Assembly (NCBI GenBank): GCA_945873305.1
Contig: CAMCCX010000003.1
Span: forward strand, 1 to 64,000
Reading direction: 5' to 3'
Source: Akkermansia muciniphila
Lineage (GTDB): Bacteria > Verrucomicrobiota > Verrucomicrobiia > Verrucomicrobiales > Akkermansiaceae
DNA: 64,000 nucleotides
Each line of letters starts with the position of its first letter. The first letter of the stretch is position 1. The notes beneath the pieces are model-generated. The model was not told the DNA's origin, did no database searches, and saw nothing but the letters and a program-made list of their open reading frames with translations. Shown here one piece after another: positions 5,646 through 63,486 of the stretch. A program made the translations under genes and the position numbers.

Positions 5646-5661
5646 TGGTATGGCCCGTGCT
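5646..5661 (+). promoter_or_regulatory. sigma-54 (RpoN) promoter
   Basis: The sequence TGGTATGGCCCGTGCT matches the sigma-54 consensus TGGYAYR-N4-TTGCW at every specified position but one (G for the first T of TTGC). GG and GC fall in the correct phase for the -24 and -12 elements. Transcription would begin near 5672, about 58 bases before the importer gene's ATG. Sigma-54 promoters typically serve nitrogen-responsive genes and need an NtrC-type activator; one such activator is encoded at 49021-50388. I did not find a clear enhancer site. Confidence 0.7.
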
Positions 5662-5670
5662 TAAATCGGT

Positions 5671-5708
5671 GTGAACAAACGGCGCGAACTTCATACCGCG
5701 CCGTTCAC
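5671..5708 (+). promoter_or_regulatory. 5' leader hairpin or operator before the importer gene
   Basis: CGGCGCG (5680-5686) pairs perfectly with CGCGCCG (5697-5703) around a 10-base loop. The helix continues as GTGAA (5671-5675) with TTCAC (5704-5708) across a 4-base bulge. It sits between the predicted sigma-54 start site and the ATG at 5730, so it could be a leader RNA structure or a protein-binding palindrome. No run of T follows, so it is not a simple terminator. I could not match it to the ykkC/guanidine-I, -II or -III riboswitch consensus. Confidence 0.5.
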
Positions 5709-5729: not shown

Positions 5730-6719
5730 ATGAAATTGTTTCGCCGCCTCGGATCCGCAGCGTTTGGACTCCTCGCCTTGAGCGGGTTCGCCAACGCAGA
5801 ACCCCTCAAAATCGCTTACTCCGACTGGCCCGGCTGGGTCGCTTGGGAAATCGGCGTGCAAAAAGGCTGGTTCAAGGAAGCCGGCGTGGACGTCGAGTTC
5901 CTGTGGTTCGACTACGTGCCGTCGATGGACGCCTACGTCTCCGGAAAAGCCGATGCGGTCTGCATCACCAATGGCGACGCCCTCGTCACCGGCGCGACCG
6001 GCAAGCCATCCGTCGCCATCATCATCAACGACTTCTCGAACGGCAACGACATGATCGTCGCCGCGCCCGGCATCGAATCGATGAAGGACTTGAAGGGCAA
6101 AAAAGTCGGCCTCGAAGAAGGCTTCGTTTCCCATCTCCTGCTGCTCACCGGCCTCGAAAAAGCCGGCATGAAGGCCGAGGACGTCACCATCGTCAACACG
6201 CCCACTAACGAAACCCCGCAAGTCCTCGCCTCGAAGGCCGTGGACGCCATCGGCGCCTGGCAGCCGAACTCCGGCCAAGCGCTCAAGGTCCTGCCCGGCT
6301 CCAAGCCGGTCTTCACCTCCGCCGACGCTCCGGGCATCATTTATGACGTGCTCGCCGTTTCCCCCGAGAGCCTCGAAAAGCGCAAGGACGACTGGATGAA
6401 AGTCACCAAGGTCTGGTACCGCATCGCCGACTACATGCACGACGAGGCGAACCTCGACGACGTCCTGAAAATCCTCTCCGCCCGCGTGAAAATCACTCCG
6501 GAAGAATACGAACCGTTCCTCAAAGGCACTTCCATACTCTCACTGGCGGACGCCCTCAAGCGCTGGGAAACCACTCCCGGCCTCGGCACCATTTACGGCT
6601 CCTCCAAAGTCGCGGACGACTTCAACCTGAAGTTCAAGGTCTATGAGAAAAGCCAGGACGTCGCGAAATACCTCGACCCGTCGTTCACCAAAGCCCTCGC
6701 CGCCGAGAAGGCCAAGTAA
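5730..6719 (+). CDS. ABC importer substrate-binding protein (urea/guanidine carboxylase-associated type)
   Basis: Periplasmic binding protein of the NMT1/SsuA/TauA type, 329 residues. A signal peptide (residues 1-23, ending GFANA) is followed by [17 protein letters not shown] and the two-lobe fold ([26 protein letters not shown]). This sequence style is that of binding proteins found beside urea carboxylase clusters, and the carboxylase lies 10 kb downstream in the same orientation. The cargo is therefore inferred to be a guanidino or urea-like compound. The ATG at 5730 was preferred to an upstream in-frame ATG at 5586 because it places the signal peptide first and lies downstream of the sigma-54 start site. 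Confidence 0.85.
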
Positions 6720-6770: not shown

Positions 6771-8162
6771 ATGGCTGCTAACACCCACCGATCTTCAGCT
6801 TCCCCAATGACCCGCCCCGGCATTTTCAGAGATTGGTTCCTCATCCGCCGGGATCTGCCACAATCCCGGCGGCTCATCCTCACCTGCGTTTCGTTCCTGC
6901 TCCCGATCGCGGTGTGGTGCTTCGTCTCCTACGTGCCGTGGATCTGGCATCCGGATGTGAAGATCGAACTCTCCGCCGAGCGCGAGGGAGTCACCACCGT
7001 ATTCACCGCGGGCGACCACGTCAGCCGGGAGTTTTTCCCGGAGTTCGTGGAAGCGGTGAGAAAGGACAACGCGGTCGTCCTGGCCGCGCGCAGCGCCGGA
7101 ACTCCCGAGCCCGGAGCCAAGCGGAAGAACCAGAAACTCCTCCGCCAACTCGCCCCGCTCGCCGTTTCACACGACTGGCTGCCATACACCGAGGCGCAGA
7201 ACGACGCCATCCTCTACACCCTCTGGCGCGACATCGCCACCGGCGCGAAAACCACCCGCAAACCCGCCCTCACCGCCGAGAACCTCGACATCGTCCGCCA
7301 GAACTGGGCGCTCCTCGCCGTAGCCTCGCCCGAGTTCTCCTACGCGAAACTTCCCGAGCAATCCCTCCTCAAGCTCATCCCTCAAGGCAAGCCCGCGAAC
7401 CCGATCTATCTGCCCGCTCCCGACGAGGTCATCCATACCGGCTACCGGGACTTCACCGCCAAGGTCCCCGCCGGGGAACTCACCATGGGCGACCGCTACA
7501 AGCGGTCCCTGCAGGTGATTTTCCTCGGCTTCTTCTGGGCCTGCGTCGTCGGCATCCCCATCGGTATCCTCTGCGGCGTCTTTGATTTCTTCTCGAAACT
7601 CTTCGAACCGTTCGTCGATTTCTTCCGCTACATGCCGGCCCCCACCTTCAGCACGCTGCTGGTCGCTGTTTTGTTAGCTGGCGACGCGCCCAAGATCGCG
7701 CTCGTCTTCATCGGCACCGTTTTCCAACTGATCCTCGTCGTTTCCAAAACCACCCGCCTGCTCGATCCATCGCTGTTGGAAGCCGCGCAGACGCTCGGAG
7801 CCAAGCCCCGCCAGTTGGTCACCCACGTCGTCATCCCTGGCATTTTGCCGAACCTCTACAACGACCTTCGCATCCTCCTCGGCTGGGCCTGGACCTGGCT
7901 CGTCATCGCCGAACTCATCGGCGTCAAGAGCGGCCTAACGGAATTTATCGAGACGCAAGGCCGCTTCCGGAACTTCGATCGGGTGTTTCCCGTCATCATC
8001 CTCATCGGCGTCACCGGCTTCGTGATGGACCAGTTCCTCTCCTGGTTGCACGGCATCTTCTTCCCATGGGCCGGCACCTCCGGCCCGCTCTCCCGCGGCA
8101 TCGTCAGCGCCTTGAAGTGGCCTGTCCAAGCGATCTCACGAAAAAGCCCCGCCCAGCCATGA
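6771..8162 (+). CDS. ABC importer permease with large periplasmic insertion
   Basis: Inner-membrane subunit of the importer, about 463 residues; the usual SsuC/TauC permease has about 250-280. One membrane segment (about residues 32-52) is followed by some 190 hydrophilic residues. The standard BPD_transp_1 core (about residues 245-450) comes next, with the EAAxxLGA cytoplasmic loop ([27 protein letters not shown] seen in part) that docks on the ATPase. Starts at 6747 (GTG) and 6807 (ATG) are also possible. The stop overlaps the ATPase start by 4 bases (ATGA). The extra domain may contact the binding protein; its fold is unknown to me. Confidence 0.85.
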
Positions 8163-9055
8163 CCGCCGATCCCACACTCCCGGACTACCGGGAACAAACA
8201 CCCGAGGTGGCGGCACGCTTCGAGCGTCTGCTCGAGCGCCCGGTCGCACTGGAAGTCAGCGGCCTCACCAAGCGCTTCGAGTCGTCGCGCAACGTCGTCA
8301 CCGCGCTCGATAACGTTTCATTCTCCGTCCACAAGCGCGAGCTGCTCAGCGTCATCGGCCCGTCCGGTTGCGGAAAATCCACTCTCGTTAGAATTCTCGC
8401 CGGCCTGGAGACACCCACCTCCGGCGAGCTCCGCGTCTATGGAGAACCCGTCTCCGGCCCCGGTCCGGACCGCGGCATGGTGTTCCAGGGCTACACGCTC
8501 TTCCCCTGGCGCACGGTTAAGGAGAACGTCATATTCGGCCCGCGCATGGCCGGGACCTCCGCCTTCAGCGCCGAGTCGCAGGCCCGCGAATGGATCGAAC
8601 TCGTCGGCCTCTCGAAATTCGAAAACGCCTATCCGCACCAGCTTTCCGGCGGCATGAAACAACGCGTCGCAATCGCCCGCGCCCTCGCCAACCAGCCGCG
8701 CGTGCTTTTCATGGACGAGCCGTTCGGCGCGCTCGACGCCCAGACGCGCTGCCAGATGCAGTCCTATCTGTTGGAAATCTGGAAGAACGTGGACATCACC
8801 ATCGTCTTCATCACCCACGATCTCGACGAGGCGGTCTTTCTATCCGACCGCATCCTCGTGCTCGACGCCAACCCCGGACGCGTCCGCGAGGTAGTCCAAG
8901 TGCCGGTCCCCCGCCCCAGAAAACCCGAGCAGCTTTTCCTCCCGTCCTTCATGGGAGTCCGCCAGCACATCGACCGTTTGATCCACCCGCCCGGCCAGGA
9001 ACAAAAGGAAGCTCCCGTCCTGCGCCACGCCATTTCAGACCCGGACGTCATCTAG
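8159..9055 (+). CDS. ABC importer ATP-binding protein
   Basis: Energises the importer at the cytoplasmic face. The 298-residue protein has Walker [10 protein letters not shown] (about residues 65-73), Q-loop FQGYTLFPW, signature [15 protein letters not shown], Walker [13 protein letters not shown] and the H-loop ITHDLDEA, i.e. the NrtD/SsuB/TauB type. A 40-residue N-terminal extension precedes the ATPase fold. It overlaps the permease stop as ATGA, which decides the start; an upstream in-frame start would run deep into the permease gene. Confidence 0.93.
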
Positions 9056-9117: not shown

Positions 9118-10476
9118 ATGAACCAAGAACAGATCCGCGCCATGCGCGACGACCTTAAAACCCAAGGCGTCAAATATTGCATCGGAGCGTTTGTCGATAT
9201 CCACGGCGTCCCCAAGGGAAAATTCGTGCCCATCGATCACTTCGAAGACTTCGCCGCCGGCAGCGAGCTCTATACCGGCTATGCGTTGGACGGCGTCGGC
9301 CAGCGCCCTAACGACGACGAAATCGCCTCACTTCCCGATCTCACCCGCGGCTGCGTCCTGCCCTGGAACAAGGAAGTCGCCTGGTTCCCGGCCGACAACA
9401 CTTTCAAAGGCGCGCCCTACGAAGTCTCCACCCGCGTCGCGCTCAAGAAGCAACTCGCCGCCGCCGCGGAAATGGGGTTCGGCATGAATCTCGGCATCGA
9501 GTGCGAGCTCTACGTCGTCAAACTCGCGGACGACGGCAGCCTGCAAATCCCCAATCCCGACGACGACCTCGTCAAGGCCTGTTACGACGTGAAGCGTTTC
9601 ATGGACCGCTACACCTGGCTCGATAAAATGGCCACCGGCATCAACGGCCTCGGCTGGGACCTCTACTCGCTCGACCACGAGGACGCCAACTCCCAGTTCG
9701 AGTTCGATTTCAAATACGCCGACGCCCTCACCATGTGCGACCGCTACGTCTTCTTCCGCCTCATGGCGAAACACTACGCCGCCGAGGAGGGATTGTTAGC
9801 CACCTTCATGCCCAAGCCCTTCGCCAACCGCACCGGCAGCGGCGCGCACTTCAACATGTCGCTCTATGATCTGGCGGACGGCTCCAATCTCTTCAAATGC
9901 CCCCATGCCGAGGACCCGCGCGGCCTCGGCGTCAGCAAGACCGCCTATCAGTTCATCGCCGGAGTCCTGAAACACGGCCCCGCCCTCTGCGCCGCCTTCG
10001 CCCCGACCGTGAATTCCTACAAGCGCCTCGTCCGCAAGGGCCTCATGTCGTACTACTCGTGGGCCCCCGTCTTCAACAGCTACGGCCGCAACAACCGCAC
10101 CAACTCCGTGCGCGTGCCCATGGCTGGCGGCCGCTTCGAGAGCCGCAACGCGGACGCCGCCTGCAACCCGTATCTCGCCGCCACCCTGATGCTCGCCGCC
10201 GGCCTCGAAGGCATCCGCGAGGATCTCGACCCCGGCCCCGCGCAGGAGGAAAACCTCTACGAACTCACCCCCGAGGAATTCGCCGCACGCGGCATCAGCG
10301 AGCTGCCGAAAACTCTCGATGAAGCCGTCGCCGCCTTCGCCGCGGATCCCTTCGTCGAAAAGACCCTCGGCACCGAACTCCGCAACGAATTCATCACCTA
10401 CAAATCCGAAGAATGGCGGCAATACCACCAACGCGTCAGCCAGTGGGAAATCGACACTTACGCGAGAATGTTCTGA
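9118..10476 (+). CDS. glnT: glutamine synthetase family enzyme, GlnT (type III-like)
   Basis: A 452-residue member of the glutamine synthetase superfamily that ligates ammonia or an amine to glutamate using ATP. Recognisable elements are [21 protein letters not shown] at the N-terminus, GIECELYVV (metal-binding Glu), the [10 protein letters not shown] histidine/nucleotide block (about residues 240-250), and NRTNSVRVP with [16 protein letters not shown] (glutamate-binding Arg and Glu). The style is that of GlnT or gamma-glutamylmethylamide synthetase-like proteins rather than housekeeping GlnA. Its position after the importer and upstream of ammonia-releasing enzymes suggests it captures the released nitrogen. 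If the imported compound is methylated, a methylamine-accepting GmaS role is the main alternative. No ribosome binding site is visible. Confidence 0.85.
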
Positions 10477-10526: not shown

Positions 10527-10835
10527 ATGCCAGACTCCACAGCCAAACTCCAGATCCGGATGGATCGCCGTCTCAAGGAAGCCGCCGACGAAGTTTTTTC
10601 CGAAATCGGCCTCGATGCCACGACCGCCGTGCGCCTCTTTTTCACCAAAGTCGCGCAGACTCGCAGCATTCCCTTCCGCCTCAAGGCCGAACCGGAATTC
10701 AGCCCCGAGGCAGAAGCACGAATCCTCGCCGCCTGGGAAGAATCCAAGGATCCGGCGAATCTCAGCAAGCCGTATTCTGATATCTCTGAAATGTTCAGAG
10801 ACATCAGAAAGGAGATTGAGGAAGAAAAACCCTGA
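10527..10835 (+). CDS. RelB/DinJ-family antitoxin
   Basis: A 102-residue antitoxin with an N-terminal ribbon-helix-helix fold. LQIRMDRRLKEAADEVFSEIGLDATTAVRLFFTKV (in two parts, residues 8-42) is the classic RelB/DinJ pattern for DNA binding and dimerisation. The C-terminal half (residues 55-102) is acidic and helical and would wrap and neutralise the toxin encoded 12 bases downstream. The protein normally represses its own promoter. Its position between glnT and the creatininase-family gene, with its own promoter, marks it as a later insertion. Confidence 0.85.
   Translation: MPDSTAKLQIRMDRRLKEAADEVFSEIGLDATTAVRLFFTKVAQTRSIPFRLKAEPEFSPEAEARILAAWEESKDPANLSKPYSDISEMFRDIRKEIEEEKP
10776..10808 (+). 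promoter_or_regulatory. near-perfect 15-bp inverted repeat at the end of the antitoxin gene
   Basis: TCTGATATCTCTGAA (10776-10790) and TTCAGAGACATCAGA (10794-10808) are inverted repeats with one mismatch (a G-U pair in RNA) around a 3-base loop. The structure lies in the antitoxin coding region, about 40 bases before the toxin GTG. It may lower toxin translation, be an RNA-cleavage site, or be a DNA operator. Function is inferred from position only. Confidence 0.5.
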
Positions 10836-10847
10836 TCATTTTTTCAA

Positions 10848-11108
10848 GTGGAAGTGATCTATACAAAACCGTTCCGCAAGGCCCTGTCTCGACTTCTTCC
10901 GCGCGAGATCGCCAACGTTGAGGAAGCGGTAGCCCTATACAAATACAACCGCGCCGACCCAGCCCTTCGCGACCACGCGCTTAAAGGGAAAATGAAGTCC
11001 CTCCGCGCCTTTTCGGCCGGTCACGACCTGCGCGTGATCTACCGCGAGGAAGGAGGATTAATTACCATCCTCCTCCTCGATGCGGGAACGCACAACCAGG
11101 TTTACTAA
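10848..11108 (+). CDS. YafQ-like toxin, mRNA interferase (RelE superfamily)
   Basis: An 86-residue toxin predicted to cleave mRNA on the ribosome. Family hallmarks are the basic N-terminus (YTKPFRKALSRL), DHALKGKMKSLRAFSAGHDLRVIY (in two parts, residues 45-68: the catalytic His, Asp and Arg region) and a hydrophobic C-terminal strand ending LLDAGTHNQVY. It uses a GTG start 12 bases after the antitoxin stop; the weak start and the hairpin upstream both fit the need to make less toxin than antitoxin. Confidence 0.85.
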   Translation: MEVIYTKPFRKALSRLLPREIANVEEAVALYKYNRADPALRDHALKGKMKSLRAFSAGHDLRVIYREEGGLITILLLDAGTHNQVY

Positions 11109-15055: not shown

Positions 15056-15124
15056 GCGCACCCGCCGGTATGACGAATGAAAAAACTCCTCATACTGGCC
15101 CCGTCCGTGCTTATCGTCCCGCAC

Positions 15125-15577
15125 ATGGCAGGCGACGATACCAACGACGGCGTGAGACGAGTGACCGTCTCGATGCGGGAGGAAACCTTTCAGGCCCTCG
15201 ACCGCCTCACCGCAGCACGTGGTTTCGAGAGCCGTTCCCAAGCGGTTGCCGAGATGATCCACCAGCACGCCGCCCAGCATTTGGGAAAAATCGGCACCGA
15301 AGTCATGGCCGGCACGCTTTCCTTGGTTTACGACGAGTCCAAGAGCACGCTGCTCCGGGATATTTCCCGCATCTTCCGCGACCACATCGCCGAAGTGATT
15401 TCCTCCCAGCACATTCTCCTCGAGGAAGAGCACGTGCTCGAAGTCATCCTCATGCAAGGCCCCGCCCGCACGCTGCGTGACATCACCAACAAACTCATCA
15501 CCTGCAAGGGCGTGAAAACCGCCCATCTCACCCTCACTCCCCACCTCATCCCGCCGCTCCACGCCAAACGCGCATGA
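15125..15577 (+). CDS. NikR-like ribbon-helix-helix regulator lacking most nickel ligands
   Basis: About 150 residues. An N-terminal ribbon-helix-helix DNA-binding segment ([18 protein letters not shown], residues 11-28) is followed by a NikR-type ACT-like effector domain ([36 protein letters not shown]). Against E. coli NikR, His76 aligns with Arg, His89 with Leu and Cys95 with Val; only His87 is kept. Nickel sensing is therefore unlikely, and another ligand is probable. An upstream ATG at 15077 is possible, but its extra 16 residues resemble a chance hydrophobic stretch. Its stop overlaps the first DUF1989 gene as ATGA. Confidence 0.8.
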
Positions 15578-16290
15578 ATCCACTCTTTGAAAGAACACTC
15601 CACGGCGCCGGCATGTGGTCCGCCGTCGTCTCCCGCGGCAAACGCCTCCGCCTCACCGACCTCGACGGCGGCTCCAACGTCGGCATGCTGCTCTACAACG
15701 CCCTCGAACGCACCGAGCGCTACAACATGCCGGACACGCTCAAGGGACAGCACATTTTCTATCTGCGAGCACCCTACTGCCTGCACTCGGACATGGGCCG
15801 TCTGCTAGCCTCCGTCACCGCGGACAGCGTCGGCTGGCATGACACCGTCTGCGGTCACTCGGACTCCGCGCGCGTGCTCGCCAAATACGGCGCGAACAAC
15901 TATCAGCAGGCCAGCAACGACTGGAACCGTAACACCCGCGATTGTTTCCTCATCGAGCTCGCGAAATGGGGGCTCGGGAAAAAAGACCTCGTCCCGAACC
16001 TCAATCTCCTCAGCAAAGTCGTCGCCGATGAGGAAGGAAATCTCTCATTCGTTCCGGAAAACTCGAAACCCGGCGACTTCATCGAACTGCGGTTTGAAAT
16101 CGACACGCTCGTCGTGCTCAACACCTGCCAGCATCCGCTCGATCCGGACCCGGTCTATCGCCACCGCCACGTGAAGCTCGAAGTCTTCGCCGGCGAACCG
16201 CCCGCCTTGGACGATCCATCACTCACCGTCCGACCGGAGAACCTCCGCGCCTGGGAGAACAATCAAACCTACCACACCCTCCGCTTCTGA
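15574..16290 (+). CDS. DUF1989 protein, carboxyguanidine deiminase subunit (urea carboxylase-associated protein 2 type)
   Basis: A 238-residue DUF1989 protein of the longer class traditionally called urea carboxylase-associated protein 2. The DUF1989 pairs beside such carboxylases have been shown to form carboxyguanidine deiminase (CgiAB), which turns carboxyguanidine into allophanate and ammonia. Candidate metal or catalytic residues are in [14 protein letters not shown] (about residues 84-97), [10 protein letters not shown] and [11 protein letters not shown] (about residues 184-194). It shares one base with the next gene (TGATG). I did not resolve which paralogue corresponds to CgiA or CgiB. 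Confidence 0.88.
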
Positions 16291-16925
16291 TGACCGAAAG
16301 CACGCTCAATCCCGAGGCCGCCATTTACCGCGAAGTCATTCCCGCGGGCGACTGGTGGGTCCACGAAATCAAGAAAGGCCAGACCCTGCGCATCCTCGAT
16401 CTCGAAGGAAACCAGGCCGCCGACACGCTCTTCTTCAGCGCCGCCGATCCCACCGAACGCTACAGCGCGGACCGCACTATCCAGGAGCAAGCCGCGCTCT
16501 ATCTGACCACCGGCACCAAACTAATGAGCACCGAAGGCAATCCCATGCTCACCATCACCGCCGACACCTGCGGGCGCCACGACACACTCGGCGGTGCGTG
16601 CTCGCGCGAGTCGAACACGATGCGCTACGCCCACGACAAGGAATGCATGCACGCCTGCCGCGACAGCTTCATCCGCGGCGCGCAGGAATGGAAAGTCGAG
16701 CTCACCAAGCGCGACATCACCTGCAACATCAACTTCTTCATGAACGTCCCGGTCTCGCCCGACGGCGGACTCACATTCGCCGACGGCATTTCCGCGCCGG
16801 GAAGATATGTCGAGATGCGGGCGGAGATGGACGTCGTCTGCCTGATTTCAAATTGCCCGCAGCTGAACAATCCGTGCAACGGGTGGAATCCCACGCCGGT
16901 CGAAGTGCTGATCTTCCCATCATGA
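16290..16925 (+). CDS. DUF1989 protein, carboxyguanidine deiminase subunit (urea carboxylase-associated protein 1 type)
   Basis: The second DUF1989 subunit, 211 residues, paralogous to the preceding gene. Shared positions include [17 protein letters not shown] near the N-terminus, [16 protein letters not shown] (about residues 90-105), [11 protein letters not shown] and [23 protein letters not shown] at the end (in two parts). The conserved Cys/His positions in both copies suggest a shared metal site in a heteromer. Its stop overlaps the carboxylase start as ATGA, so the two steps of the pathway are translationally linked. Confidence 0.88.
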
Positions 16926-19900
16926 AAATCCTCATCGCCAACCGCGGGGAAATCGCCGCACGCGCCATCCGCACATTCAAGAAACTCGGCTATCAGAGCA
17001 TCGCCGTTTATTCCGATCCCGATTCCGGCGCGCCGCATGTGGATCTAGCGGATGAAGCCCATCTTCTCGGACCAGGTCCGGTTTCCGAGAGTTATCTACT
17101 CAAAGACAAGTTGCTGGAAATCGCCAGGAACTCGGAAGCCAGTGCGGTATTCCCCGGCTACGGATTACTCAGCGAGAACACCGACTTCGCCCGCATGTGC
17201 GAGGACGCCGGAGTCAAATGGCTCGGCCCCACGCCCGAGCAGATCATCGCCTTCGGGCTCAAACACGAAGCCCGCCGCCTGGCCGGCGACGCGGGCGTGC
17301 CACTCGTTCCGGGCACCGGCTTGTTGGAGAACGCGGAAGCTGCAATTCTCGCCGCGAAGGAAATCGGCTACCCCGTCATGCTTAAAAGCACCGCCGGCGG
17401 CGGCGGGATCGGCATGAAAGTCTGCCGCGATGAAGCCGAGCTTCTTCGGGAGTTCGAAAGCGTCGTTCGCTTAAGCGAGCGCAGTTTCGGATCCGGCAGT
17501 GTGTTCCTCGAGCGTTTCATCCAGCGCGGCCGCCATGTGGAAGTGCAGATTTTCGGCGATGGCAACGGCAGGGTGTTAGCGCTCGGCGAGCGCGATTGCT
17601 CGGTGCAGCGGCGGAACCAGAAAGTCTTCGAGGAAACCCCCGCGCCGGGGCTTTCCGATGAAACAAGATCCGCGCTCCACGCCGCGGCGGTGAAGCTGGG
17701 AGAGAGCGTGAACTACCGCTCGGCGGGCACCGTCGAATTCATCTACGACGCCGACCGCGATGACTTCTTCTTCCTCGAAGTGAACACCCGCCTGCAAGTC
17801 GAGCACGGCGTCACCGAGCTCGTCACCGGCATCGATCTGGTCGAGTGGATGGTCCGCCTCGCGCTCGATGAAACCTGGCAAATGCCGGAGATCTATCCGG
17901 CTCCCCAAGGCTGCGCGATCCAGGCCCGCGTCTATGCCGAGGACCCGAATCACAATTTCCGCCCGAGCTGCGGCCTACTAACGGAAGCGACATTTCCCGA
18001 GTGGACGCGCTGCGACGGTTGGATCGAACCGGGCACCGAGGTCAGTCCGTTTTATGATCCGCTGCTCGCCAAGGTCATGGTCCACGCCGCCGACCGAAAG
18101 GCAGCGGTTGCCAAGTTGGAGCAAGCGCTGGATGAGACGAAAATCTCCGGCATCGAGACGAATCTTCGCTACCTGCGCGGCATCGTCCGCTGGACGCCTT
18201 ACCTCAGTGGCGGCGTGGCGATGCGCGACATGGCGGATTTTTCCTACACGCCGCACACCATCGACGTGGTCTCGGCAGGCACGATGACGACTGTGCAGGA
18301 TTGGCCGGGCCGCGTCGGATATTGGGAAGTCGGCGTGCCGCCGTGCGGACCGTTCGACAATCTATCACTCCGCCTCGCGAACCGGCTTGTCGGAAATCCG
18401 GAAGGCACCGCCGCGCTGGAAATCACGATGACCGGGCCGACGCTGCGTTTCAACTCCGCGACGAGCATCGCGGTGGTGGGAGCTTCCGCGCTGCTGCTGA
18501 AGAACGGCGAGCCTGTGGCGATGAACGAACGCATCGAGATATCCGCGGGAGATGTTTTGAAGATCGGCCGCTTCGAAACGACCGGTGCGCGTGCCTACTT
18601 CGCGGTGTCGGGCGGGATCGAGTCGCCGGAATATCTCGGGAGTTGTTCGACATTCACGTTAGGAAAATTCGGCGGGCCGTTCGGACGCGCGCTCTTGCCG
18701 GGCGATGTGCTGGGAATATGGGGCGGGGACGTCTCGTCCCCGCATGAAGGGACGAGCCGTCCCTTCCCCTTATCTCACTCGTGGAAAATCGCCGTCCTCT
18801 ACGGCCCACACGGCGCGCCCGATTTCTTCCTCGATGAAGACATCGACACCTTTTTCGCTACGAAATGGGAAGTTCACTACAACTCCGCCAGAACCGGCGT
18901 CCGCCTCATCGGCCCGAAGCCAAAATGGGCGCGCACCGACGGCGGCGAAGCTGGCCTACACCCGTCTAACTTACACGACAACGCCTACGCCATTGGCGCG
19001 GTTGATTTCACCGGCGACATGCCCGTCATCCTCGGCCCCGACGGTCCGAGCCTCGGCGGCTTCGTTTGTCCGGTCGTGGTGGTGGACGCGGAGTTATGGA
19101 AACTCGGCCAGCTGCGGCCCGGCGACCTCATCGAGTTCGTCCCGGTCGATGAAGCGTGGGCGCGTGACCGCCAAATCGAAGTGACTGAATTCCTCGCCGG
19201 AGAGCGCACGGAACTATCCGATCCAGTGGCTGGCGAGCGCGGTTCCTGTTTCATCGATTCATTCGGCGAAGGTGACGAATCCGTGGTCGTCCGGCGCGCG
19301 GGTGACCGGTATTTCCTGATCGAGTTCGGCCCGCATCACCTCGACTTGAAACTGCGCTTCAAGGCCCACGTCGTTCACGAGTGGCTGAAGAAGCAAGACA
19401 TCGCGGGTATCATCGATCTCACGCCTGGCATCCGTTCCTTGCAGGTTCACTTCGATCCGGGCGTGATCGGGCGCTGCGATCTGTGGGAGAAAATCCGCGA
19501 AGGCATCGCGGCATTACCACCACTGGAGCAGATCGAGGTGCCGACGCGCATCGTCCATCTTCCACTGAGCTGGGACGACCCGAGCACCAAGGAAGCCATC
19601 CGCCGCTACATGCAGAGCGTGCGGCCCGATGCGCCGTGGTGCCCGAGCAATCTGGAGTTCATCCAGCGCATCAATGGGCTGGATTCCATCGACGAGGTTT
19701 ACAAAATTTTCTTCGAAGCATCCTATCTGGTGATGGGCCTCGGCGACGTCTATCTGGGCGCGCCCGTCGCCACGCCGCTCGACCCGCGCCACCGGATGGT
19801 GACCACGAAATACAACCCCGCGCGGACGTGGACGCCGGAGAACGCCGTCGGCATCGGCGGAGCCTATCTCTGCATTTATGGCATGGAAGGACCGGGTGGC

Positions 19901-20494
19901 TATCAGTTCACCGGCCGGACGATTCCCGTGTGGAACCGCTGGCGGAAGACGGAGGATTTCGAAAAGCCATGGCTGCTGCGGTTCTTCGACCAGCTGCGTT
20001 TCTATCCGGTGAGCGCGGAGGAACTGCTGCGTTTGCGGGAGGAAGTTCCGCGCGGCCGCCACAAGCTGGAGATCGAGGAAAAGGTGTTTCGTTTTTCCGA
20101 CTACGAGGCGTTCCTCGAGGCGCACTCGGAAGAAATCGACGCCTTCCAGACCAAGCAGCGCGCGGCGTTCGAAGCCGAGCGGAAGCGCTGGGAGGAAGCC
20201 GGACTATCGATGGATGCGCCTGCGGAAGCGGTTGTCGAAGTGGACGAGGTGGTGATCCCGGACGGATGTTTCACCATGGACAGCCCGGTCACCGGCAGCG
20301 TGTGGAAAATCGAGGTCAGCGTGGGATCGCTGCTCGTATCGGGCAGGTCGGCGCTGATCTTGGAAGCGATGAAAATGGAAATCCCGCTCGAAGCGGACGG
20401 CGACATCGAAATCGTCGAACTTCTGGTAGCCGAAGGCGCGAGCGTCCGCGCCGGGCAAGCATTGGTGATTGTGAAGCCCAACAATCCATCATGA
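16922..20494 (+). CDS. biotin-dependent guanidine/urea carboxylase
   Basis: A 1190-residue multidomain carboxylase. In order: biotin carboxylase (residues 1 to about 450, with [18 protein letters not shown], the Gly-rich GGGGIGMK loop and [15 protein letters not shown]); carboxyltransferase halves AHS2 (from about 460, [20 protein letters not shown]) and AHS1 (from about 790, [20 protein letters not shown]); and a C-terminal biotin carrier with LEAMKME (about residues 1151-1157). Such enzymes are annotated as urea carboxylase, but those next to DUF1989 genes prefer guanidine. A REP-like repeat is inserted in frame near residue 600. The ATG at 16922 was chosen by ATGA overlap. Confidence 0.93.
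18717..18772. repeat. REP-like double hairpin inserted in the carboxylase coding sequence
   Basis: Two adjacent perfect 8-bp hairpins with 3-base loops, 18724-18742 (CGGGGACG / CGTCCCCG) and 18747-18765 (AAGGGACG / CGTCCCTT), are flanked by pairing outer arms (GGGG at 18720-18723 with CCCC at 18766-18769). The design matches the element at 47412-47465. It lies in frame within the carboxylase gene and encodes [15 protein letters not shown], where homologues have an unrelated loop. Confidence 0.8.
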
Positions 20495-22209
20495 ACATCA
20501 GCGAACTCAAAAGCCGCTATCATGCGGGCTTCACTCCATCCCAAATGATCGAGGAGGTCTGGGAGAGGATTTCAGTCTGGAATGATCCCGCGATTTTCAT
20601 TCATCTGCCGGAGAAAGCCGTCCTGCTAGTCATCGCAGCGGAGGTGGAAGCGATGGACAAAAACCTTCCTCTGTGGGGAATTCCGTTCGTGGTGAAGGAC
20701 AACATCGACGTCGCAAAATGGCCGACAACGGCAGCTTGCCCCGAGTTTTCCTACGTTCCAACGGATGATGCGGAGACTGTCAGGCTCTTGCGCGCGGCGG
20801 GTGCGATTCCGATTGCGAAGGGCAACCTCGACCAATTCGCCACGGGCCTGGTTGGCACGCGTTCGCCTTACGGCATTCCCCGGAATGCGATCGACCCGGA
20901 ATTCCTGCCGGGCGGTTCGAGCTCAGGCAGCGCGTCCGCCGTCGCGGCGGGTCTCTGCGTTTTTTCGTTAGGAACGGACACCGCGGGCTCGGGCCGGGTG
21001 CCGGCGGCGTTCCAGGAACTGATCGGCTGGAAGCCGACGCGCGGTTTGCTGAGCAACCGGGGCGTGGTTCCTGCCTGCCGGTCCTTGGATTGTATCTCCG
21101 TCTTTACTAACTGCGCCGCGGACGCGCTGTGCATCTCGGACGTGGTCGGTAGCTACGACGCTGCGGATACGTTCTCATCGCAAGTGGAGCCAGCAGGTAG
21201 AATCTGCGAGAATTTCCGGTTCGGTGTGCCCCGGGAGCTGGATTTCGCCGGCGATCCGGACACGCCCGGCTTGTTCGCCACGGCGGTGGAAAAGATGATC
21301 GCGCTGGGTGGAACTCCGGTTGAAATCGACCTCACGCCATTCACCGAGGCGGCCAAGTTGCTTTATGAAGGACCCTGGGTCGCCGAGCGCTGGGCGGCGG
21401 TGGGTGAGTTCGTGGAACTGCATCCCGAGGATGTCTTTCCGGTGACGCTGAAAATTCTGGAAGGGTCGAAGGGCTGGGACGCGGCATCGACGTTCAAGGC
21501 GCAGTATCGGTTGCGGGAGTTCGCGCGTGAGACGGAAGGAGTTTGGAAGCAAATCGATTTTCTGTTACTCCCGACGACGCCGCGACTGTACACTGTCGCG
21601 GAAAATCTAGCCGAACCATTCGGCACGAATGCCACGCTCGGCCGTTACACGAATTTCATGAACCTACTGGACTTGTCCGCCGTGGCGATGCCAGCCGGGC
21701 GGGCGAGGTCCGGGAGCGCGCCCTGGGGCGTGACGCTCGCCGCTCCGGCGGGCTGGGATTCGGCGTTGCTGGATTTCGCCGGAAAATTTCGTGGTGAAAC
21801 GATGGCTCCCCGCGTTTCCCGGAAAATCCCGCTGCTCGTCTGCGGGGCGCATTTGGAAGGCCTGGCACTGCATTGGCAACTCACGGATCGCGGGGCGATT
21901 CTCCGAGAAAAGACGCAAACAGCACCGGTTTACCGAATGTATGCGATGCCACCGAGCGGCACGATTCCCCCGCGCCCGGCGTTGATCCGGGACGACGCGG
22001 CGGGGGCGGCGATCAAGGTGGAAGTCTGGGAACTGGAGCCTGCGGCATTCGGTGATTTCGTTTCGAAAATTCCGGGACCGCTGGGAATCGGCAAGGTGCT
22101 GCTGGAAAGCGGCGAGGAGGTTCCAGGCCTCATCGCGGAGCCGCGGGCGACGGAAGGGGCGGAAGAAATCACCCGATTCGGCGGCTGGCGGGCATGGATG
22201 GATGCGTGA
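20491..22209 (+). CDS. atzF: allophanate hydrolase
   Basis: Hydrolyses allophanate to ammonia and carbon dioxide, the last step of the pathway. The 572-residue protein has an N-terminal amidase-signature domain (residues 1 to about 440). The Ser-Ser-Lys triad sits in PFVVKDNID, PGGSSSGSASAVAAG and TDTAGSGRVPAA. A C-terminal AtzF-type domain from about residue 450 (VCGAHLEGLALHWQL) is also present, as in full-length AtzF. It overlaps the carboxylase stop as ATGA and ends the operon; no terminator is visible in the 39 bases after it. Confidence 0.95.
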   Translation: MNISELKSRYHAGFTPSQMIEEVWERISVWNDPAIFIHLPEKAVLLVIAAEVEAMDKNLPLWGIPFVVKDNIDVAKWPTTAACPEFSYVPTDDAETVRLLRAAGAIPIAKGNLDQFATGLVGTRSPYGIPRNAIDPEFLPGGSSSGSASAVAAGLCVFSLGTDTAGSGRVPAAFQELIGWKPTRGLLSNRGVVPACRSLDCISVFTNCAADALCISDVVGSYDAADTFSSQVEPAGRICENFRFGVPRELDFAGDPDTPGLFATAVEKMIALGGTPVEIDLTPFTEAAKLLYEGPWVAERWAAVGEFVELHPEDVFPVTLKILEGSKGWDAASTFKAQYRLREFARETEGVWKQIDFLLLPTTPRLYTVAENLAEPFGTNATLGRYTNFMNLLDLSAVAMPAGRARSGSAPWGVTLAAPAGWDSALLDFAGKFRGETMAPRVSRKIPLLVCGAHLEGLALHWQLTDRGAILREKTQTAPVYRMYAMPPSGTIPPRPALIRDDAAGAAIKVEVWELEPAAFGDFVSKIPGPLGIGKVLLESGEEVPGLIAEPRATEGAEEITRFGGWRAWMDA

Positions 22210-23301: not shown

Positions 23302-27079
<3,778 letters not shown>

Positions 27080-47465: not shown

Positions 47466-47786
47466 GGATTTTCGGGCCTCGGCGCACACCCAGGCTCGAT
47501 ACGTTTCTGAGATTTTCTCGGGCTCCAGCGCAATGATTTCCGGCACGTCGTAAGGATGCAGCTCGGTCAGCATTTTCTCAAACTCGGGGAACGCGGCGGC
47601 GGTGGTTTTGAAAATCGCGAGCGTCTCGGCGGCGGTTTCGACTTTCCCCTGCCAGCGGTAGATCGACTCCACGGCGGGCAGGAGATTGACACAAGCCGCG
47701 AGTTGCGCTTCAACTAGGACCGTGCCAATTTGTCGCGCCTGTCCGGGATCCGGGAAGGTGCAAAGGATTACTAAAACGTCGCTCAT
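47463..47786 (-). CDS. cutA: divalent cation tolerance protein CutA
   Basis: A 107-residue trimeric signalling-like protein of the CutA1 family, linked to metal tolerance. The pattern is classic: VLVILCTFPDPGQARQIG, LAACVNLLPAVESIYRWQGK (about residues 29-48), TAAAFPEFEKMLTELHPYDV, PEIIALEP. Its ATG shares two bases, head to head, with the ATG of the divergent histidine kinase. The stop lies within the REP-like element. Confidence 0.92.
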   Translation of the reverse strand: MSDVLVILCTFPDPGQARQIGTVLVEAQLAACVNLLPAVESIYRWQGKVETAAETLAIFKTTAAAFPEFEKMLTELHPYDVPEIIALEPEKISETYRAWVCAEARKS

Positions 47787-49008
47787 GGCCTCTCCTGAAC
47801 ACCGAAAACCCCGAACAAGCAAACTCAAGGTGAAATCCGGCTTTCTTGAAAAGCTGGTCGCCCGCTTGGATCGCGTGGTCCCCGGCGACGTCCAGCAGAT
47901 GGTCACCCGCTTGATCCGCGAGAAGGGATTTCTGGAAAAAGTCTTCGAAGCGCTCCACGAGGGCGTCATCATCCTCGACCCGAAAGGCGTGATCGGCTTC
48001 CTCAACCACGCGGCCTGCCAGTTTTTCGGGCTCGATCCGGAACGGGCGACCGGCGAGTACATCTCCACCCAGATCCGCGGGCTGGACTGGGCGACGCTGG
48101 GGAAACCCGGCCGCACGATCAGCCGCGACCTGGAGGTTTTCTATCCGGAGAACCGCTACCTGAATTTCTACCTCGCGCCGATCGACGGCGCGGAGGACGA
48201 CCACGAACCGCTCGGCTACGTGATGCTCGTCCGCGACCTCACCACCACCCGCGCGGAGGCGGAGGAAACGCTGGAATCCGAGCGCCTCAACGCGCTCACC
48301 CTGCTCGCCGCGGGCGTCGCCCATGAAATCGGCAACCCGCTCAACTCGCTCGACATCCACCTCCAACTGCTCGGCCGCAAGCTGCGCAAACTGCCGCCCG
48401 GCGACCGCGGCCCGCTGGAGGAAAACCTCACCACCGCGCGCGAGGAAATCCAGCGGCTGGACCTCATTCTCAAGCAATTCCTCCACGCCGTCCGGCCCAC
48501 CGCGCCGCTCCGCGAGAAGCAGGACCTGCACGCGATTTTACACGACACCCTGCGCCTGCTGGAACCGGAGCTCGCCTCGCGGAAAATCGCCGTGCAGCTC
48601 GATCTCGCGGATTCGCTGCCGCCCGCGTTCATCGATCCGGGCCAGTTCCAACAGGTTTTCTACAACCTCATCCGCAACGCGTTCCAGGCGATCTCCTCCG
48701 ACCAAGGCCACGTCACCATCCGCACGCGGGTCAGCGATTTCGAATACATCATCTCCATCGAGGACAACGGCACCGGCATTTCCCCGGAGCACATGGGCGC
48801 GCTGTTCGAGCCTTACCGCACCACGAAATCCTCCGGCTCCGGGCTCGGCCTGCTCATCGTGCGGCGGATCATCCGCGAACACGGCGGGGCGATCGCCATT
48901 GAGAGCGAGGAAAACCAAGGCACCCGCGTGCTGATCAATTTCCCCCACAAAGAGCGGCCGGTGCGGCTGCTCGCCGCGCCCGAACCTGATCCGGTCATCG
49001 ACCTCTAA
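47785..49008 (+). CDS. soluble PAS-domain histidine kinase (NtrB-like)
   Basis: A 407-residue kinase without membrane segments. A PAS domain (about residues 50-160: LHEGVIILDPKGVIGFLNHA, FFGLDPERATGEY) is followed by a dimerisation/phosphoacceptor helix with LAAGVAHEIGNPLNSLDIHL (His near residue 180). The ATPase domain has the N box NLIRNAFQAI, then EDNGTGISPEHM and GSGLGLLIVRRI. It is paired with the sigma-54 activator 12 bases downstream and would phosphorylate it. The signal is unknown. The ATG overlaps cutA's start head to head, so the promoter must lie inside cutA or the true start is further in. Confidence 0.92.
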   Translation: MASPEHRKPRTSKLKVKSGFLEKLVARLDRVVPGDVQQMVTRLIREKGFLEKVFEALHEGVIILDPKGVIGFLNHAACQFFGLDPERATGEYISTQIRGLDWATLGKPGRTISRDLEVFYPENRYLNFYLAPIDGAEDDHEPLGYVMLVRDLTTTRAEAEETLESERLNALTLLAAGVAHEIGNPLNSLDIHLQLLGRKLRKLPPGDRGPLEENLTTAREEIQRLDLILKQFLHAVRPTAPLREKQDLHAILHDTLRLLEPELASRKIAVQLDLADSLPPAFIDPGQFQQVFYNLIRNAFQAISSDQGHVTIRTRVSDFEYIISIEDNGTGISPEHMGALFEPYRTTKSSGSGLGLLIVRRIIREHGGAIAIESEENQGTRVLINFPHKERPVRLLAAPEPDPVIDL

Positions 49009-49020
49009 AATTTCACGCCC

Positions 49021-50388
49021 ATGCTCCCCACCTTGCTCATCGTAGAAGACGAACGCGCGACCCGCGAGGGGTTGCGCAGTGCGTTGGAAGAGGAATTCGA
49101 CGTTTACACGGCCTCCAGCGCGAGCGAGGCGCTGGCGATTTTGAAATCCGAGCCGATCAAAATCCTGCTCACCGACCTCCGGCTCGGCGGCGACTCGGGC
49201 ATGGACCTGCTCGACGCGGCGCTGGCCCTGCCCGAGCCGCCGGTCGCCATCATGATGACCGCCTACGGCTCGGTGGACACCGCGGTCGAGGCGATGCGCC
49301 GGGGCGCGTGGCACTTCGTCACCAAGCCGCTCAACCTCGACGAAGTGGAAATGCTGCTCAAGCGCGCTCTGCGCAACCGGACGCTCGAAACCGAAAACCA
49401 ACAGCTCGTCCAACAGGTCAAGAAATCCCACAAGCTCGACCGCCTGATCGGCAAATCCACCGCCATCGGCCGGGTTTCCGAGCTCGTCCAGCAAGTCGCG
49501 CCGACGCGGGCCACCGTGCTCATCGAGGGCGAGTCCGGCACCGGCAAGGAAGTCGTCGCGCACACGCTGCACCATCTTTCCGGCCGGCCGGCGGCGAAAA
49601 TGGTCATCGTCCACTGCGCCGCGCTCTCGCCGCAGTTGTTGGAAAGCGAGCTCTTCGGCCATGAGAAAGGCGCGTTCACCGGAGCCTCGCAACGCCGGAT
49701 CGGCCGCTTCGAGCAGGCGGACGGCGGCACGCTTTTCCTCGATGAAATCGGCGAGATCGACGCCTCCACCCAAGTGAAACTGCTGCGCGTGCTGTCCGAG
49801 CGGACCTTGGAACGCGTCGGCTCGAACTCACCGATCAAGGTCGATGTGCGGGTCATCGCCGCGACCAACAAGAACCTCAAGGAGCTGGTGGGAAAAGGAG
49901 CTTTCCGCGAAGACCTCTATTTCCGGCTCAACGTGGTGAAAATCGAAATGCCGCCGCTGCGCGACCGGCGGGAGGACATCGTCTTGCTGGCGGGAAGCTT
50001 CCTCCAGGAATTCGCCAAGGAAAACGACCGCCCGGTCAAGCCGCTAACGGACGAAGCGATGCAGCTCCTGCTCGCCTATTCGTGGCCCGGCAACGTCCGC
50101 GAACTCCGCACCGCCATCGAGCACGGCGTGGTGATGAGCAACGACCCGGTCATCGAGGCACGCCACCTGCCGCAATTCCTGCATTTCCCGGCGGCCGCCA
50201 TCGGCATTTCCACTCCGCCGACCAAAAACACCCTTGCCGCTCCGGCCGAATTCAACTTGCATGCGCTCGAAACCAATACGATCCGAGCCGCACTCTCCCT
50301 CGCCGGAGGAAACCGAACCCATGCGGCGGATCTGCTTGGCGTCAGCCGCAGAACCCTTCAGCGCAAATTGAAAGATCTCGGTTTCTGA
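49021..50388 (+). CDS. NtrC-family sigma-54-dependent response regulator
   Basis: A 455-residue activator. The receiver domain (1 to about 115) has the phosphoacceptor Asp in ILLTDLRLGGDSG (near residue 52), the AAA+ domain (about 140-375) has Walker A GESGTGKE, the sigma-54 contact loop GAFTGA (near residue 218) and Walker B GGTLFLDEIGEI, and the C-terminal Fis-type helix-turn-helix reads NRTHAADLLGVSRRTLQRKL. It must act at -24/-12 promoters; the best such site in the window is at 5646-5661, although no link is proven. It is 29 bases before the next gene. Confidence 0.95.
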   Translation: MLPTLLIVEDERATREGLRSALEEEFDVYTASSASEALAILKSEPIKILLTDLRLGGDSGMDLLDAALALPEPPVAIMMTAYGSVDTAVEAMRRGAWHFVTKPLNLDEVEMLLKRALRNRTLETENQQLVQQVKKSHKLDRLIGKSTAIGRVSELVQQVAPTRATVLIEGESGTGKEVVAHTLHHLSGRPAAKMVIVHCAALSPQLLESELFGHEKGAFTGASQRRIGRFEQADGGTLFLDEIGEIDASTQVKLLRVLSERTLERVGSNSPIKVDVRVIAATNKNLKELVGKGAFREDLYFRLNVVKIEMPPLRDRREDIVLLAGSFLQEFAKENDRPVKPLTDEAMQLLLAYSWPGNVRELRTAIEHGVVMSNDPVIEARHLPQFLHFPAAAIGISTPPTKNTLAAPAEFNLHALETNTIRAALSLAGGNRTHAADLLGVSRRTLQRKLKDLGF

Positions 50389-60803: not shown

Positions 60804-62525
60804 CTAAAAGAGAAAATACCGCTGTGCCATCGGCAGCACGGATATCGGCTCGCAGCGCAACTCATCACCGTCGGCAGTGACGGTGTAGGTGTCCGGATCG
60901 ACGGTGATCTTTGGCAAAGCGTCGTTGAACGGGAGATCGCGCTTGGTCACGGAACGGCAATTCTTCACCGCGACAAGTCTCTTGGTTAGGCCAAGTTCTG
61001 CGAGAGCGCCGGATTCCAGCGAGGCGGCGCTGACGAAAGTCACCGAGGTTGCGGCGATCGCCTTTCCGAAGGCTCCGAACTGCGGTCGATACATCGTCGG
61101 CTGCGGCGTGGGGATGGAGGCATTAGGGTCGCCCATGTTCGCCCAAGCGATGAGACCGCCTTTGAGAATAGTCTCCGGTTTGACGCCGAAGAAGGCGGGT
61201 TTCCAAATAACGATGTCCGCGAGTTTTCCCAACTCGATGCTGCCGACTTCGTGGGCGATGCCATGGGTGATGGCGGGGCAAATCGTGTATTTCGCGACGT
61301 AGCGGAGCGCGCGGAAATTGTCGGCGGCCGGATGAGTCGGACCTTCGAGTTTGCCGAACTGGACCTTCATCTTGTGCGCCGTCTGCCAGGTGCGGGTGAT
61401 CGTTTCGCCGATGCGGCCCATCGCCTGACTGTCGCTGGACATCATGGAAATTGCCCCCAAGTCGTGCAGGCGATCTTCCGCAGCAATGGTCTCGGGACGG
61501 ATCCGGCTTTCCGCGAAGGCGACGTCTTCCGGAATGCGCGAGTCGAGGTGGTGGCAGACCATGAGCATATCAAGATGCTCGTCGATGGTGTTAGTCGTGA
61601 ACGGCCGGGTCGGGTTGGTGGACGACGGCAGAACGTTGGCCTCGCCGCAGACGCGGATGATGTCGGGCGCGTGGCCGCCGCCGGCGCCTTCGGAGTGATA
61701 GGTGTGAATCGTGCGCCCTTTGAACGCGGCGAGGGTGCTTTCGACAAAGCCGGCTTCGTTGAGGGTGTCGGTATGAATGGCGACCTGGATGTCGAACTCA
61801 TCCGCCACGGTTAGACAAGTGTCGATGGCGGCGGGAGTGGTACCCCAGTCTTCGTGGAGCTTGAGCCCGATGACGCCTGCCAGAACCTGCTCGCGTAGAG
61901 GTTCGGGAGAAGAGCAATTTCCCTTTCCAAGGAAACCGAGGTTGACGGGAAACGCCTCGGCGCTTTCGAGCATCCGGTGGATGTTCCATTTTCCCGGCGT
62001 ACACGTCGTCGCATAAGTCCCATGCGCCGGGCCGGTGCCGCCGCCGATGAGCGTGGTCACGCCACTGGCGATGGCGTGCTCGATTTGCTGCGGGCAGATG
62101 AAATGGATGTGCGTGTCGATCCCGCCGGCGGTGACAATGCAGCCCTCGCCCGCGATGACCTCGGTGGAGGCTCCGATGGTCATGCTGATGCCGTCTTGCA
62201 GCAGCGGATTTCCCGCGTGACCGATGCCGACGATACGGCCGTGTTTGATGCCGACGTCCGCCTTGATCACGCCTTGCGCGGCGTCGAGGATGAGGGCGTT
62301 GGTGATGACGAGATCGAGCGAATCCGCATCGAGCGCGAGTGGGGACTGCGCCATGCCGTCGCGGATGACCTTGCCGCCGCCGAACTTCACTTCGTTGCCA
62401 TAGCCGCCGGCTTCGGCGATTAGATCGCGCTCGACCTCAATGAAAATCTCGGTATCTGCAAGACGGACTTGGTCACCCGTGGTGGGACCAAACATGCCGG
62501 CGTAATTGGCGCGGGTTTGTTTCAT
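60804..62525 (-). CDS. ureC: urease alpha subunit
   Basis: Catalytic subunit that hydrolyses urea to ammonia and carbamate at a di-nickel site. The 573-residue protein keeps the key residues: [12 protein letters not shown] (two His ligands, about residues 132-143), the carbamylated Lys in [10 protein letters not shown] (about residue 221), the His in [25 protein letters not shown], the flap [17 protein letters not shown] and the Asp ligand in [16 protein letters not shown] overlap with ureB. Confidence 0.98.
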
Positions 62526-63457: not shown

Positions 63458-63486
63458 ACGCTAAGAGTGAGCAGCGCTCATGCCAA
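63458..63486 (-). promoter_or_regulatory. promoter of the urease operon
   Basis: Read on the minus strand, TTGGCA (63486-63481) and TAGCGT (63463-63458) are spaced by 17 bases. The start of transcription would fall near 63451, about 10 bases before the ATG at 63441. It lies just after the urtA terminator, so urease can be transcribed separately. I found no sigma-54 site here. Confidence 0.45.

Follow-up and report, generated by a model that had tools for sequence, protein, structure and literature searches.

The window, which is the whole stretch of 64,000 nt of Akkermansia muciniphila DNA that was analysed, holds two gene groups with a predicted role in the use of guanidine (Table 1). The first encodes an ABC importer, and a ligase gene lies after it. 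The second is headed by a gene for a NikR-like regulator and continues through the two subunits of carboxyguanidine deiminase and the carboxylase to allophanate hydrolase, with neighbouring genes overlapping or abutting throughout. An alignment shows that two residues of the carboxylase, those matching K. lactis positions 1330 and 1584, are Asp. This pair of residues marks a guanidine rather than a urea carboxylase (PMC11410670), and the pathway context is in place, as the genes of the deiminase subunits and of allophanate hydrolase adjoin that of the carboxylase. A sigma-54-type promoter box precedes each of the two groups, and each box is accompanied by an inverted repeat of the type bound by NikR.

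Table 1. Predicted genes and regulatory features at the guanidine locus and at related sites of the window.
Feature	Position	Strand	Remarks
Sigma-54 (-24/-12) promoter, guanidine importer	5646..5661	+	TGGTATGGCCCGTGCT; predicted +1 at 5672
NikR-type operator (putative), GTGTGA-N16-TCATAC	5669..5696	+	about -3 to +25; overlaps predicted importer start site
5′-UTR RNA hairpin	5678..5705	+	about +7 to +34; loop holds right operator half-site
Importer substrate-binding protein	5730..6719	+	NMT1/SsuA-like, related to TIGR03427
Importer permease	6807..8162	+	
Importer ATPase	8159..9055	+	
Type III glutamine synthetase-like ligase	9118..10476	+	same strand, after importer; TIGR03105 over cut-off
Second NikR-type operator (putative), GTATGA-N16-TCATAC	15068..15095	+	-54 to -27 of second sigma-54 start
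Second sigma-54 box	15096..15111	+	TGGCCCCGTCCGTGCT; predicted +1 at 15122, three bases before ATG at 15125
NikR-like ribbon-helix-helix regulator	15125..15577	+	without high-affinity nickel site
UAAP1, carboxyguanidine deiminase subunit	15574..16290	+	TIGR03425 over cut-off
UAAP2, carboxyguanidine deiminase subunit	16290..16925	+	TIGR03424 over cut-off
Guanidine carboxylase (annotated urea carboxylase)	16922..20494	+	diagnostic Asp residues
Allophanate hydrolase	20491..22209	+	TIGR02713 over cut-off
PAS histidine kinase	47785-49008		beside NtrC-family response regulator
NtrC-family sigma-54 response regulator	49021..50388	+	candidate activator; profile matches; candidate only for importer promoter
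Further sigma-54 box	63470..63485	-	TGGCATGAGCGCTGCT; ahead of urease operon; pattern match

Other features of the window were noted in passing. Between the ligase gene and a creatininase gene, two small ORFs (10527-11108, + strand), judged by eye to be RelB-like and mRNA-interferase-like, resemble an antitoxin/toxin pair. Further along, at 23320-27079 (+ strand), a beta-galactosidase gene that by eye is glycoside-hydrolase-2-like appears to be divided over three ORFs, possibly through frameshifts or assembly errors.

In the importer box, the GG at 5647-5648 and the GC at 5659-5660 of the + strand are ten bases apart, as the invariant GG/GC spacing of this promoter class demands. The predicted start site is at a suitable distance from the importer ATG at 5730; the start given by the ORF caller, 5586, is too early. 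A sequence-only reading of this DNA had already described this phasing and distance, and both hold. It had also placed the box one mismatch away from the consensus, which is correct for the degenerate form TGGYAYRN4TTGCW and overstates the quality of the match, as the strict form TGGCACGN4TTGCW is missed at three positions. Sites of either grade are as frequent as chance predicts: the window holds 2 sites at one mismatch from the degenerate consensus (1.85 expected) and 95 at three mismatches from the strict one (99.8 expected). Across the whole genome, TGGYAYGN5TGCT occurs 8 times, against 10 for the reversed control, so that there is no enrichment. By its own sequence alone, the importer box is indistinguishable from chance.

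The decisive evidence for the promoter comes from related genomes. Of 145 family genomes searched for the importer binding protein, 27 encode it. Within the 27 readable importer upstream regions, a set that includes the window's own region and one paralogue, 25 carry TGGYAYRN5TGCW no more than 150 bp from the start codon. Over 300 rounds of dinucleotide shuffling, a mean of 0.02 regions and a maximum of 1 had the box, counts that overstate the independence of the regions since orthologues share ancestry. In an anchored alignment of 23 importer promoters, only the -24/-12 box and the dyad block stand out from unconserved flanks. Because the box is kept at orthologous promoters, it can be regarded as real despite the chance-level match of its sequence. 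The comparison thus strongly supports a genuine, evolutionarily conserved sigma-54 promoter ahead of the importer, as the sequence-only reading had proposed. In one relative (L037/L034, G139:C229), the importer binding-protein gene is broken by a stop or a change of frame, with box and dyad intact; neither a nikR-like gene nor a guanidine carboxylase gene was found in that genome.

Use of such a promoter requires sigma-54, and rpoN, the presence of which the sequence-only reading had left to be checked, is complete in this genome, where a single ORF encodes the three RpoN domains. It is also present in 25 of the 26 other tested genomes that bear the importer or the regulator. No rpoN match was obtained in the remaining one, the importer-bearing relative G045 (96% complete), although its importer promoter has the box. 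The same sigma-54 pattern precedes the genes for P-II, an ammonium transporter (Amt) and a glutamine synthetase as well as the urease operon of this genome, sites that as predicted promoters are the expected nitrogen regulon. This shared pattern supports the earlier proposal that the importer is under nitrogen control, with a predicted response to nitrogen limitation. At least three plausible genes for sigma-54 activators are encoded in the genome, one of them in the window.

The importer promoter shares its GG-N10-GC geometry with nitrogen-regulated sigma-54 promoters of the glnK-amtB and glnA type. It differs from them in having a local operator over the start site and no recognised NtrC-like enhancer. 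A scan for NtrC-type enhancer dyads upstream of the importer and the other nitrogen promoters, a check suggested by the sequence-only reading, found no shared motif. In several relatives (L011, L014, L066, L071, L072), a strong hairpin with a T run, resembling an intrinsic terminator, ends the gene upstream of the importer. In many relatives, the gap between such a terminator-like hairpin and the sigma-54 box is only some 20-30 bp and leaves little space for nearby enhancers. Further sigma-54-like boxes were seen at G000:C141:3846, C111:2356 and C146:4100 (L088, L087 and L089); the ORF that follows the first of these has no Pfam match. Within the urease genes of the window, an Rfam 5_ureB_sRNA match (62075-62367, + strand, 92.8 bits) runs antisense to the ureC coding sequence and probably reflects the conservation of urease coding rather than an sRNA.

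The dyad that accompanies the box has the family form GTRTGA-N16-TCAYAC; in the importer copy the left half reads GTGTGA. This pattern matches the published operator of E. coli NikR, which is GTATGA-N16-TCATAC (PMC7055735) and has also been given as GTATGAT-N13/14-ATCATAC (PMC545781). Its placement is fixed, as it lies exactly 22 bp from the GG of the box in all 16 importer regions that have both elements. The second dyad abuts the second sigma-54 box, and among close orthologues the dyad is followed by GGC-N8-TGC[TA], which equals GG-N10-GC, in 13 of 13 cases. This second conserved box supports the suggestion that perhaps the whole region is under nitrogen control. The genome holds exactly two copies of the dyad, both within the guanidine cluster, and none in the reversed control, and in other genomes nearly all copies are at the importer or at nikR-like genes. 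A search of about 85,000 species genomes gave 17 stretches with box and dyad in the 22-bp phase; every one is labelled Verrucomicrobiota, and they include Haloferula and Akkermansiaceae. Haloferula luteola (L101) is a relative that shares this architecture. A NikR-type operator over the importer start site implies that pathway-specific control would operate as well as nitrogen control. The earlier account, supported as to sigma-54, missed this operator. In more distant importer orthologues (L024-L033), the box is kept and GTRTGA-N16-TCAYAC is absent. In some of these (L027-L031), direct repeats of a GTATGA (or TTATGA) half-site, at a distance of 22 bp from each other, occur upstream of the sigma-54 box.

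The protein encoded beside the second dyad is a NikR homologue by sequence, Pfam and predicted fold (ribbon-helix-helix plus NikR_C). In the predicted structure, the C-terminal domain fits that of NikR at 1-2 Å, with a loose fit of 12-14 Å over the whole chain. Each of the curated NCBIfam cut-offs for NikR is missed (87.2/105, 75.4/111, 72.1/83, 66/175 and 59.7/119 bits). Across 21 members, the DNA-contact positions R3, T5 and T7 are kept as R, T or S, and S, and in none of the 21 are all four nickel ligands (His76, His87, His89, Cys95) found together. The window's own protein has R, H, L and V at these positions, so that His76, His89 and Cys95 are replaced. Judged from these alignments, the regulator descends from NikR, a nickel sensor, and has lost nickel-binding residues. 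A nikR-like gene is present in 27 of the 145 family genomes, and all 27 also encode guanidine carboxylase. In every one of 41 distinct loci (48 minus 7 repeats, drawn also from further orders and classes within the phylum), it adjoins the genes for carboxyguanidine deiminase, guanidine carboxylase or the importer. The system has the domain arrangement, the contact positions 3, 5 and 7 and the operator in common with E. coli NikR and its nik operator. In contrast to these, the NikR-like protein is without the nickel ligands, its targets would be guanidine import and breakdown, and the operator is phase-locked to a sigma-54 promoter. The literature searched yielded no relevant paper on NikR with either sigma-54 or guanidine carboxylase.

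Downstream of the predicted start site, the importer leader folds into a hairpin. The arm-swap comparison is the one strong result among the hairpin tests: 5′ arms joined to the 3′ arms of other species fold more weakly (mean -5.9 kcal/mol) than arms paired within species (-9.7 kcal/mol), and 0 of 20,000 permutations were as good (z -7.5). From one species to another the arms shift in register, which suggests that the stem as such is kept. For distant orthologues, the leader hairpin is suggestive only, with a mean folding z-score no better than that of an upstream control that contains terminators. The hairpin had also been considered to account for the leader dyad; this was dropped once the dyad appeared upstream of the nikR-like start, which identified it as a putative DNA operator.

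Operons for guanidine carboxylase under guanidine-I or -II riboswitches share with this locus the ABC importer, the carboxylase with its diagnostic Asp residues, carboxyguanidine deiminase and allophanate hydrolase (PMC12186494). They differ in their control, as no riboswitch was found here and a protein-based system of sigma-54 and the NikR-like regulator is proposed. Neither the 64,000-nt window nor the importer leader yielded a riboswitch of any guanidine class; an FsrA match in the leader, at 15 bits, is noise. The guanidine-I class was found in 0 of the 145 family genomes, the other classes having been searched for in this window. The sequence-only reading, in preferring nitrogen control to a guanidine riboswitch, is upheld on this point. 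Akkermansiaceae with the pathway appear to control guanidine use by proteins and not by the usual guanidine riboswitch.

These elements can be combined into a model that is considered likely as a whole. Under nitrogen limitation, sigma-54 RNA polymerase fired by an activator of the NtrC family would transcribe the importer from its conserved box, and the second promoter would serve the degradation operon. The NikR-family regulator, as the first gene product of that operon, would bind both dyads. Since the importer dyad spans the start site, repression there is most likely by occlusion, and the regulator is probably a repressor of its own operon as well. Guanidine or a pathway intermediate is the most likely ligand that lifts repression, because the nickel ligands are lost and the regulator travels with guanidine carboxylase; the case for guanidine is one of association. 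The hairpin would add a third layer of control and probably acts on the importer mRNA by stabilising or tuning it, a 5′-end stabiliser being the simplest guess.

A rival reading, held to be extremely unlikely, takes the 16-mer for a coincidence and assigns transcription of the importer to a housekeeping promoter, such as an extended -10-like element, TGCTTAAAT, at 5658-5666. Such a reading would account for the three strict mismatches and for the chance-level counts in window and genome, but not for the retention of the box in the upstream regions of relatives. In addition, the bases 3′ of TGCT do not show the conservation of a -10 element, and no sigma-70-like pair was found in the region. 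A chance origin of the box is rejected on the evidence of the orthologues and not of sequence alone. The dyad, for its part, overlaps the covarying hairpin and might on that ground be an RNA element in the importer leader, either a new riboswitch or an attenuator, rather than a protein operator. This is very improbable, as the same dyad lies outside the transcript at the nikR-like promoter, equals a known NikR operator and is fixed in position while the hairpin arms slide. A regulator that still senses nickel or another metal, linking both guanidine use and urease to the supply of metal, would explain why the fold and operator of NikR are retained, and urease, a nickel enzyme, is encoded in the same window. 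It is nevertheless unlikely in view of the replaced ligands in the window's protein, the lack of a complete ligand set in any member, the scores under every NikR cut-off and the guanidine genes that surround nikR-like.

The ligand of NikR itself favours binding to DNA, the opposite of the induction logic proposed for the NikR-like protein. The regulator could instead be a homeostatic co-repressor that binds when guanidine or nitrogen is sufficient and shuts import at high supply. This arrangement would mirror the logic of NikR, where Ni(II) promotes binding (PMC7055735), and it would suit the toxicity of excess guanidine (PMC12186494). It is held to be somewhat unlikely, as the degradation operon, which has the same operator at its promoter, would be shut as well. 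Induction through relief of repression is the reading retained here.

A 2025 review knows of no guanidine-binding transcription factor (PMC12186494), and for this reason the proposed ligand is worth testing. The NikR-like protein offers a concrete candidate for a guanidine-sensing protein, and one that can be tested. That it does sense guanidine (or carboxyguanidine or allophanate), and that it forms with sigma-54 an AND gate replacing guanidine riboswitches across Verrucomicrobiota, is a more tentative proposal, judged a little short of even. If true, nitrogen starvation and substrate would both be needed for expression. Members of this bacterial family have the guanidine carboxylase pathway, no guanidine-I riboswitch and a NikR descendant from which the nickel site is gone. 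Also of interest would be the promoter, whose design ties a local operator in fixed phase to the sigma-54 polymerase, and the regulator, as an example of a metalloregulator that switched its signal and retained its DNA site.

The site itself varies among distant NikR-like members, some of which have a related operator, GTATTAC..GTAATAC (L117, L121, L123, L124). In L124, this operator directly follows a sigma-54 box at an importer. The relatives that have it tend to carry Ser, not Thr, at position 5 of the ribbon, a possible switch of specificity.
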